Below, piece after piece: positions 17,755 through 20,689 of a DNA stretch of 36,498 bases. The notes under the pieces were generated by a model. The model was not told the DNA's origin and searched no databases. It worked only from the letters and a program-made list of their open reading frames with translations. This DNA is from an uncultured bacterium (GTDB taxonomy: Bacteria > Patescibacteriota > Minisyncoccia > Moranbacterales > UBA1568), in assembly GCA_937864125.1 (NCBI GenBank), contig CALMHZ010000001.1:1-36498 (forward strand), given 5' to 3'. The translations under genes were made by a program, and so were the position numbers. Each line of letters starts with the position of its first letter. Within the stretch, counting starts at the first letter, position 1.

Positions 17755-19458
17755 ATGAGACTTCAGAATAAAATCCGCATGCAGTTCGCGTGGGTCCTCG
17801 CCCTCGCGCTTTTTTCTGGGATCGTAGCGTATCCGCATGTACTGTCGTTTATTCCCAAATTCTCCCTTGCTCCCGCGATAGAAGACAGATTGGCCATCAA
17901 TCTGGGTCTTGATCTTCAAGGGGGCATCCATCTTGAGTATTTGGCCGATGTGTCGCAGGTTCCGGAGGACAAAAAGGCCGATGCGCTCGACGCGGCGCTT
18001 GCCGTCATCGAGCGGAGAGTCAACGCCTTCGGAGTCGGGGAGCCGGTCATCCAGTCTTCGAAGTCGGGCGCCGAGGATCGTATCATCGTCGAGCTTCCCG
18101 GAGTGAAGGATGTCGAGGAGGCGAAGAGGATGCTCAAGGAAACCCCGTTTCTCGAATTCCGCGAGTCCCAGGACGAAGAGCTCGAGAGGCAGTTCGATGA
18201 GCGCAATGCCATCGAGAAAAAAAACGCGGAAGATGTCCTCGGGCGGGCCAAGAGGGGTGAGGATTTTTCCGCCCTCGCGAAAGAGTTCAGTCAGGACCCC
18301 GGATCGAAAGAGTCAGGCGGAGATCTTGATTTCGTGGGCAAAGGAGTGTTCGTGCCTCAGTTCGACGAGGTGATCTTCCGCGAGGATTTCAAGCCGGGAA
18401 GCGTCTATCCGGAGCTTGTAGAATCGCCTTTCGGGTGGCATATCATCAAAAAGCTGGAAGAGCGCGGAGAGGGAGAGGGGAAGGAGGTCCGCGTGGCCCA
18501 CATCCTGTTTTCCAAGCAGTCACTTGATATGATTCCGGATTCGGTCCGCTTCAAGCCGACGGGTCTTTCGGGGAAAAATCTCAAGGATGCCTTTATCGAC
18601 TATCAGGGGCAGGGGCTCGGGTCGCCGCAGGTCGGGCTCCAGTTCGATAGCGAGGGAGCCGCGCTTTTCGCGGATATAACCAAGCGCAATATCGATAAGC
18701 CGATTGCCATATTCCTTGATGATGAGATTATCAGCGCTCCGACCGTACAGACCGAAATCACCGACGGTCGTGCGGTTATAACCGGGAGCTTCACCCTCGA
18801 GGAAGTGAAATCGCTGGTGGGCCGTCTCAACGAAGGTGCGCTTCCTGTGCCGATCACGCTCGTCGGCCAGCAATCGATAGACGCGTCTCTTGGGAAAGAA
18901 GCGCTGCAAAAGAGCATTTTTGCCGGAATCATGGGACTCCTCGCGGTGTCTTTGTATATGGTGCTTTACTATCGGTTCTTGGGTTTTGGTGCGGTGTTCG
19001 CGCTCCTTATCTATTCGGCCATGCTCCTCTCTTTGTTCCGGCTTTCCGGCCTCACGCCTTTTCCTATCACGCTTACGCTCTCGGGTATCGCGGGATTCGT
19101 GCTTTCGATCGGTATCGCCGTCGATGCGAATGTGCTTATTTTCGAGCGGACCCGCGAAGAACTCGCCTATGGGAAGTCAGTCCACAAATCGCTGCAGGAG
19201 GGATTCAGGCGCGCGTGGCCGAGCATCCGCGACGGGCATGTCTCTACGCTTATCACGACCTTCATCCTTATCCTCATGGGAACGGGGTTCGTGAAGGGGT
19301 TTGCGGTGATCCTAGCGCTCGGGGTTCTCCTCTCGCTTTTCACCGCGGTCGTGCTCGTACGGGTATGGCTTCGCTTCGTCGTCTCGGACTGGGCGGAAAA
19401 ACGGCCGTGGCTCCTCGTCGCGCCGAAGAAACTCCTGGAGGAAGATGAAACGAAATAA
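17755..19458 (+). CDS. secD: Protein translocase subunit SecD with inserted parvulin-like PPIase domain
   Basis: SecD motifs LGLDLQGGIHLEY, ERRVNAFGVGEP, LNEGALPVPI, SGIAGFVLSIGIAVDANVLIFER; insertion with FSALAKEFSQDPGSKESGGDLDFV...GWHIIKKLEERG. Confidence 0.95.
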   Translation: MRLQNKIRMQFAWVLALALFSGIVAYPHVLSFIPKFSLAPAIEDRLAINLGLDLQGGIHLEYLADVSQVPEDKKADALDAALAVIERRVNAFGVGEPVIQSSKSGAEDRIIVELPGVKDVEEAKRMLKETPFLEFRESQDEELERQFDERNAIEKKNAEDVLGRAKRGEDFSALAKEFSQDPGSKESGGDLDFVGKGVFVPQFDEVIFREDFKPGSVYPELVESPFGWHIIKKLEERGEGEGKEVRVAHILFSKQSLDMIPDSVRFKPTGLSGKNLKDAFIDYQGQGLGSPQVGLQFDSEGAALFADITKRNIDKPIAIFLDDEIISAPTVQTEITDGRAVITGSFTLEEVKSLVGRLNEGALPVPITLVGQQSIDASLGKEALQKSIFAGIMGLLAVSLYMVLYYRFLGFGAVFALLIYSAMLLSLFRLSGLTPFPITLTLSGIAGFVLSIGIAVDANVLIFERTREELAYGKSVHKSLQEGFRRAWPSIRDGHVSTLITTFILILMGTGFVKGFAVILALGVLLSLFTAVVLVRVWLRFVVSDWAEKRPWLLVAPKKLLEEDETK

Positions 19459-19461
19459 TAT

Positions 19462-20361
19462 ATGCGACAGATCATCCAACAAAGAAAGTTCACCTACATG
19501 CTCTCAGGAGCGCTCCTCCTTTTGTCGGTGCTCGCCATCTCGATATGGGGACTTCGCCTGGGACTTGATTTCAAAGGAGGAACCCTCCTTGAAGTCCGTT
19601 TTTCGAAAGATGCCGCCCCCGACGCGAGGGAGGTTCAGTCATTGCTCGAACCCTTGGGGCTTCAGAGTTTGTCGGTGCAAGGAACGGAAGGAAACGGGTC
19701 CATCATCCGTTACCTCAACTCCGATGAAACGACGAATAACCGGGTCATGGAACAGCTTGAAAAAAGGGACGCGGGATTGACGCTTCTTCGGACGGATTTT
19801 ATCGGCGCCTCGGTGTCGGAACAGATGAAATCGAGCGCCTTTTGGGGAATACTTTTTTCCATATTGGGCATCGCAGGCTACATAGCGCTCGCGTTCCGCA
19901 AGGTGTCGCAGCCCATTTCTTCCTGGGACTACGGATGGGGAGCCGTGATCGCCCTCGCTCACGACATCGTCATCACGATCGGCGCGTTCGCCGTATTCGG
20001 CCATTTCCTCGATATCGAAGTCGGAATTCCGTTCGTCGCGGCCCTTCTTACCATTCTCGGATATTCGGTGAATGATAGCATCGTGGTCTATGATCGGATC
20101 CGCGAGAACCTGCTTCGCTCCCGTGCGAAAGCGGATTTCGAAACATTGGTGAACCGATCGGTGAATGAAACGATGTCACGGTCCATAAATACTTCCATGA
20201 CCGTCATGATCGTTCTCGCGGCGATAGCGATTTTCGGCGGGGAGAGCATCCGGTGGTTCGCGATCGCCCTTCTTATCGGGGTCGGTTTCGGGACCTATTC
20301 TTCCGTATTCGTCGCGTCCGCCCTTCTTGTCACCCGCTACGCCATGAAGCATAAGAAATAA
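19462..20361 (+). CDS. secF: Protein translocase subunit SecF
   Basis: GLDFKGGTLLEV, ALAHDIVITIGAF, AALLTILGYSVNDSIVVYDRIREN; directly downstream of secD. Confidence 0.95.
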   Translation: MRQIIQQRKFTYMLSGALLLLSVLAISIWGLRLGLDFKGGTLLEVRFSKDAAPDAREVQSLLEPLGLQSLSVQGTEGNGSIIRYLNSDETTNNRVMEQLEKRDAGLTLLRTDFIGASVSEQMKSSAFWGILFSILGIAGYIALAFRKVSQPISSWDYGWGAVIALAHDIVITIGAFAVFGHFLDIEVGIPFVAALLTILGYSVNDSIVVYDRIRENLLRSRAKADFETLVNRSVNETMSRSINTSMTVMIVLAAIAIFGGESIRWFAIALLIGVGFGTYSSVFVASALLVTRYAMKHKK

Positions 20362-20374
20362 TGATGATCAGAGT

Positions 20375-20689
20375 ATGAGCATGAAATGGAATCCTTTCGC
20401 GAAGAAAAAAGATGGAACGGCTTCGAAGCCATCCGTCGAGAGCGAGCTCGCCTCCCTTCCGGGCGCTCCGAAACTCGAGGACATGGGGATGATGGAACGC
20501 TTCGCGATGAAGCGATTCATGAAGATGAGCCCCGAAGAACAGAAGAAAATGGTCGAAAAAGCCATGACGCCGAAGAATATCGAGAAACACAAGGACGAGA
20601 TCGTCGCGTCCCTCGAGGAAATGAAAAAAAGCCGGATGATTTCCGATGATCAGTATCGTTTGATGAAACGGAAGTTCGGCATCAAATAA
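20375..20689 (+). CDS. Hypothetical small basic protein (104 aa)
   Basis: Complete ORF in tight spacing between secF and tyrS, with no recognised domain. Confidence 0.65.
   Translation: MSMKWNPFAKKKDGTASKPSVESELASLPGAPKLEDMGMMERFAMKRFMKMSPEEQKKMVEKAMTPKNIEKHKDEIVASLEEMKKSRMISDDQYRLMKRKFGIK

Follow-up and report, generated by a model that had tools for sequence, protein, structure and literature searches.

The secD locus and its insert

The stretch of DNA analysed here (36,498 nucleotides, referred to as the window) carries on its forward strand a secD gene (17755..19458, +) whose 567-amino acid product contains a parvulin insert. The protein scored 373.3 bits against the NCBIfam SecD model TIGR01129 (cut-off 244.4). 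A secF gene encoding 299 amino acids (19462..20361, +; TIGR00966, 278 bits) lies 3 bases downstream, and Asp457, in the motif AVDAN, was invariant in the SecD alignment; the two features required of a SecD, this aspartate and an adjoining secF, are therefore both present. Downstream of secF, an open reading frame of 104 amino acids (20375-20689, +) had no Pfam match.

Pfam matches within the SecD protein fell in the order SecD_1st, Rotamase_3/Rotamase and SecDF_P1_head. SecD_1st (amino acids 79-139; 17989..18171, +) represents the N-terminal part of the P1 base and SecDF_P1_head (amino acids 268-365; 18556..18849, +) the P1 head, while the C-terminal membrane domain bearing Asp457 was located by Pfam and alignment at amino acids 372-532 (18868..19350, +). 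The P1 base, the P1 head, the membrane domain with its aspartate and the adjacent secF are all held in common with the characterised proteins of Thermus (3AQP) and E. coli (5MG3). The alignment with Thermus SecDF, however, covered the window SecD only as far as amino acid 138 and resumed at amino acid 267, which places the insert at the junction of the P1 base and P1 head; Thermus SecDF has approximately 37 residues at this site, compared to about 128-129 in the window SecD. In the known topology of SecD this junction lies outside the membrane. A preliminary description of the locus had assigned the parvulin sequence to positions 18172-18522 (amino acids 140-256); these lie within the insert, but the whole extra segment linking base and head is longer, at approximately amino acids 139-267 (18169..18555, +).

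A parvulin domain with its first strand last

The proposal that parvulin sequence interrupts SecD was borne out, as the translated reading frame contains the segment originally quoted and the Pfam match is far above the cut-off. The core of the domain, from alpha1 to beta4 (amino acids 150-235; 18202..18459, +), matched PF13616 (Rotamase_3) with 78.6 bits (6.8e-22, cut-off 22.5, model positions 32-114 of 116) and PF00639 (Rotamase) with 64 bits (cut-off 21.7, model positions 15-94 of 97). The core fold, the SxD and GGDL motifs, the GxHII strand and the dual histidines are common to the insert and to the single parvulins PrsA and PpiC. Asp181, in SQDPGS (18295..18297, +), aligns with the active-site Asp/Cys of parvulins, from which its equivalence is inferred.

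In both parvulin models the first strand was left unmatched ahead of the core. Its counterpart, VRVAHILF, comes after GWHIIKKLEERGEGEGKE (the GWHIIKK strand); the displaced strand beta1 with His249 was placed at amino acids 244-253 (18484..18513, +) by alignment, motif and AlphaFold, and strand beta4 with His229 at amino acids 227-237 (18433..18465, +) by alignment and AlphaFold. PrsA and PpiC have beta1 first, whereas the insert has it last. The beta1-first chain order of parvulins (beta-alpha3-beta-alpha-beta2) is thus not met, and the insert is a circularly permuted variant rather than a canonical member of the Rotamase family. It differs also from SurA, a separate soluble chaperone with beta1 first, in being one permuted unit inside a membrane protein; no Pfam match to the SurA_N domain was present in the window SecD, which does not qualify as a SurA.

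The displaced strand is conserved. Its His, Ile and Leu were invariant in an alignment of 14 diverse SecD inserts, as was the histidine of GxH (His229, 16 of 16 SecD sequences), and Asp181 was nearly invariant in the SecD alignment. A beta1 motif trained on 49 parvulin first strands from outside the Patescibacteria was scored on 73 SecDs with a single parvulin unit, both in the 60 residues ahead of the domain and after it. The motif reached at least 10 bits after the domain in 68 of the 73 (median 20.4), while it was found ahead of the domain in none (0/73, best score 2.3 bits) and in none of 39 SecDs without an insert.

With the beta1 strand moved to the front, the Rotamase_3 score rose to 91.0 bits, from 82.8 bits in native order, and the match now reached the start of the model; two scrambled strands gave no gain (81.9 and 81.7 bits). 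The same rotation applied to a stand-alone parvulin (L117) changed its score from 109.9 bits in native order to 120.5 bits with the strand in front and 106.3 bits with the strand scrambled. The circular permutation suggested in the preliminary description is accordingly backed by sequence, conservation, paired histidine changes, the rotation test and two AlphaFold models, and is neither chance nor decay.

Predicted structure of the insert

The insert was folded on its own with AlphaFold (amino acids 136-274, 12 sequences), with almost no other part of SecD included. One compact domain was predicted (pLDDT 90.8, pTM 0.82), with strands at residues 55-60, 87-89, 92-102 and 109-118, the last being the HIL strand; as no SecD domain is present in this model, the HIL strand can pair there only with the insert. 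The same strands were predicted in full-length SecD (190-194, 222-224, 227-237 and 244-253), where the pLDDT stayed close to 90 throughout the insert. By these models the insert comprises four strands and four helices, as in a parvulin; strand order within the sheet was not measured, and strand neighbours were inferred from DSSP and from folding in isolation, not from coordinates.

When the insert was used as a Foldseek query the confident matches were all parvulins, the best being 8hm3_B (E 1.6e-7), and PrsA (6xd8_A) was superposed over 76 columns with an rmsd of 1.5. Only SecDF and RND pumps were among the matches listed for the full SecD model, a search which is silent on the insert. It had been stated beforehand that a fold other than that of a parvulin, or a HIL strand lying in the SecD base, would refute the proposal; the models predict a parvulin fold with the HIL strand in the insert. 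The link between beta4 and beta1 is short (amino acids 238-243) in the window SecD and in most relatives. Long acidic or low-complexity loops were observed at this position in the SecD inserts of L083, L148, L151, L074 and L060.

Proposed role in protein export

The insert is best explained as a complete permuted parvulin located at the hinge that joins the P1 base of SecD to its P1 head, which probably acts as a prolyl isomerase and/or peptide-holding foldase. The analysis establishes its identity as a parvulin, its permutation, its conservation and the pairing of its histidines; its activity, its contact with exported chains and its capture are inferred. In the proposed arrangement the chain would run through alpha1-alpha3, beta2, alpha4, beta3 and beta4 and then into beta1, with the short beta4-beta1 link standing in for the usual N-terminal entry of a parvulin and the His229/His249 pair being rebuilt from strands which are now neighbours in sequence. 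SecDF draws on the proton gradient to assist the pulling of exported chains; its P1 head is mobile and binds peptide (PMC9987972). SurA has been found to bind the holo-translocon, and AlphaFold docks its parvulin domains on the P1 head of SecDF (PMC9987972). In the Patescibacteria with the insert, a domain of this kind is joined covalently to SecD beside the P1 head. The insert would meet the emerging chain at the SecYEG exit, where the P1 head handles it, and might there speed proline isomerisation or keep emerging chains unfolded. That export and folding are coupled, as the preliminary description proposed, is plausible and agrees with the SurA-SecDF work (PMC9987972), although no data presented here bear on it.

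Searches of the open-licence literature yielded no description of either a permuted parvulin or a SecD-parvulin fusion. The meeting of SurA and SecDF at the translocon was shown only recently (PMC9987972); both parts are here one protein, which makes a contact of the SurA-SecDF type directly testable. Patescibacteria are gene-poor, and a foldase kept in the export motor bears on the folding of their envelope proteins; if the activity is real, the protein-exporting machine of many of these ultra-small bacteria may carry its own folding helper.

The histidine pair, multi-unit inserts and alternative readings

In known structures the two parvulin histidines pair on two central strands (PMC5353683, PMC2678132), and by alignment the insert carries its dual histidines, His229 and His249, on the same two strands. 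Among the 73 one-unit SecDs, counted as sequences without regard to kinship, both histidines were kept in 67, both were gone in 4 (L049, L051, L077 and L080) and 2 were mixed. On the tree, co-change of the histidines could be counted on well-supported branches as only 2 independent pairs and a sign test was not significant; with so few independent events, the statistic carries little weight after kinship is taken into account.

Many SecDs of approximately 690 amino acids, and single-chain SecDF proteins of approximately 950-1100 amino acids, have two parvulin units, in the order alpha1-beta4, then beta1-alpha1-beta4, then beta1. The Pfam match of the central unit begins at model position 1 (L213, L188), which indicates that this unit is canonical and that the parts flanking it make up a permuted shell. 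Of 40 such proteins, 38 lacked both histidines in the shell (first beta4 and last beta1), 1 retained both there and 1 was mixed, while the central unit kept both in 38 and had lost both in 2. This is the pattern expected if the central unit interrupts the shell between its beta4 and beta1. Two of the one-unit SecDs without histidines, L049 and L051, nest in the two-unit clade (well-supported branch, 98) and retain only the degenerate shell, from which it follows that a permuted shell can stand alone without the central copy. Larger inserts of this multi-unit kind, present in many relatives, go beyond what had been noticed previously. In some families the SecD inserts are longer still and combine one or more Pfam parvulins with degenerate stretches, e.g. 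the reading frames of 787-981 amino acids in L318, L319, L320 and L321, each with one canonical parvulin.

These losses are the main argument for reading the insert as a permuted parvulin fold that clamps peptide or acts as a spacer without catalysis, rather than as an isomerase, since the absence of both histidines from most two-unit shells suggests that catalysis is dispensable in some copies, and the four one-unit SecDs lacking both point the same way. Furthermore, in Pin1 work cited in PMC2678132, histidine mutants keep their activity and a structural role is given to the pair; a kept pair is consequently no proof of catalysis, and the conserved histidines may have a structural and not a catalytic role. 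The lineage of the window, however, keeps both histidines and Asp181, and a degenerate shell is usually accompanied by a central copy with both histidines. A clamp or spacer is considered doubtful on this evidence, though it remains the most serious competitor to a working foldase.

According to another explanation the HIL strand is all that remains of a second parvulin, since lost, and does not belong to the fold, the domain being a truncated parvulin without beta1. The SecD profile aligns without a break to alpha1-beta4 of the first parvulin domain (P1) of E. coli SurA and of SurA-type tandems (including 8hm3/8hm4) plus the first strand of the second (P2), as would a truncated tandem, but a strong beta1 motif is kept in nearly all of the one-unit relatives, the beta1 histidine follows the beta4 histidine, and the strand is confidently predicted inside the isolated domain. 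The vestigial strand is very improbable and was rejected on the conservation and the histidine pairing. The suggestion in the preliminary description of a remnant of a tandem pair is therefore retained in part: the SurA alignment makes a tandem ancestor likely, but a remnant is no true rival to permutation as there is one self-contained domain. Marginally less credible still is a swapped dimer, in which each parvulin is completed by the HIL strand of an adjacent SecD molecule. Swapping is not excluded, as prediction of a monomer is blind to it, but the short beta4-beta1 link in the window SecD and most relatives favours a hairpin within the chain.

Distribution among relatives

A full-length match to the insert was found in at least 49 of 57 genomes related to that of the window (the same order), and one genome of the order has lost it (G036, L086). 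Named records assign this group to Candidatus Moranbacteria, and further cases were seen in Buchananbacteria, Kerfeldbacteria and Magasanikbacteria. Although the window genome is a draft of 97 contigs, an assembly or annotation artefact has virtually no credibility and was ruled out by these independent genomes, a full-length match in so many of them being no accident of assembly.

The phylum was surveyed with an even sample of 384 Patescibacteria genomes, at least 49 of which had a match in a long frame that spans the insert and continues into the P1 head; more were read directly, and the real figure is therefore higher. Other Patescibacteria have ordinary short SecDs without the insert. No match combining parvulin and P1 head was among those listed for 201 Chloroflexota genomes, nor among those listed for 99 Acidobacteriota genomes. 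The evidence for absence of the fusion from these two phyla is strong but not complete. The genome scan was limited to the best 80 loci, and rare fusions elsewhere are consequently not excluded. An apparent fusion outside the Patescibacteria, in a record titled Lysobacteraceae (L153, JAACEG010000012.1), was rejected; the genome is of approximately 700 kb, its SecD groups with those of Patescibacteria, and the title is probably wrong.

Stand-alone parvulins and origin of the insert

The permutation is not peculiar to SecD, and its presence in stand-alone chaperones had previously been missed. Among 46 Patescibacteria stand-alone proteins with a single parvulin, HIL follows beta4 in 32; a degenerate strand, mostly RQIF or SQIF, takes this place in 11, all from the order of the window, and 3 of the same layout (L123, L126 and L131) have HIL in front in the canonical manner. 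Six Acidobacteriota stand-alone parvulins (including L157, L159, L169, L172 and L206) likewise have HIL downstream of beta4, and no second parvulin core follows it. As in the SecD insert, the HIL strand of these permuted chaperones comes after GYHIIK. Unlike the insert, these chaperones are not part of SecD, and each has an N-terminal segment of its own, which in L117 is SurA_N-like, as well as a C-terminal segment (FxxWL in Patescibacteria).

The canonical and permuted stand-alone forms of Patescibacteria have N- and C-terminal parts in common, so that the permutation must have arisen within one chaperone family, and the alignment of the SecD profile across the junction of the two SurA domains suggests duplication and end-trimming. 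A parvulin of SurA/PrsA type was most likely duplicated and trimmed at its ends to give the permuted form, which was then captured into SecD. Such a capture of an already permuted domain is inferred as the probable origin of the insert, as the same permutation is found in stand-alone proteins. The domain tree rests on only 76 columns; in it the SecD copies are mostly nearest the stand-alone permuted ones, and the donor is unresolved. We lean, if only slightly, towards a wider account in which natural permutation gave the main parvulin form of Patescibacteria, found also in Acidobacteriota, and permuted and canonical units, one or more in series, were then built into SecD to yield an export motor that carries its own folding enzyme where chains leave the translocon. 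The occurrence of both forms in one chaperone family offers a ready test of how far the PPIase fold and its dual histidines tolerate rewiring.

The window genome encodes a second parvulin, a reading frame of 359 amino acids containing GLGFHILLVNERKKEGDAERVRVSQIFVKKK (L002, G000:C96:8244-8579), in which a beta1-like strand is also last, with Gln replacing His. In the order of the window (L103-L116) the stand-alone parvulin mostly lacks the beta1 histidine while the SecD copy keeps it, and a division of labour between the two is possible there. Elsewhere in the phylum the stand-alone parvulins retain HIL.
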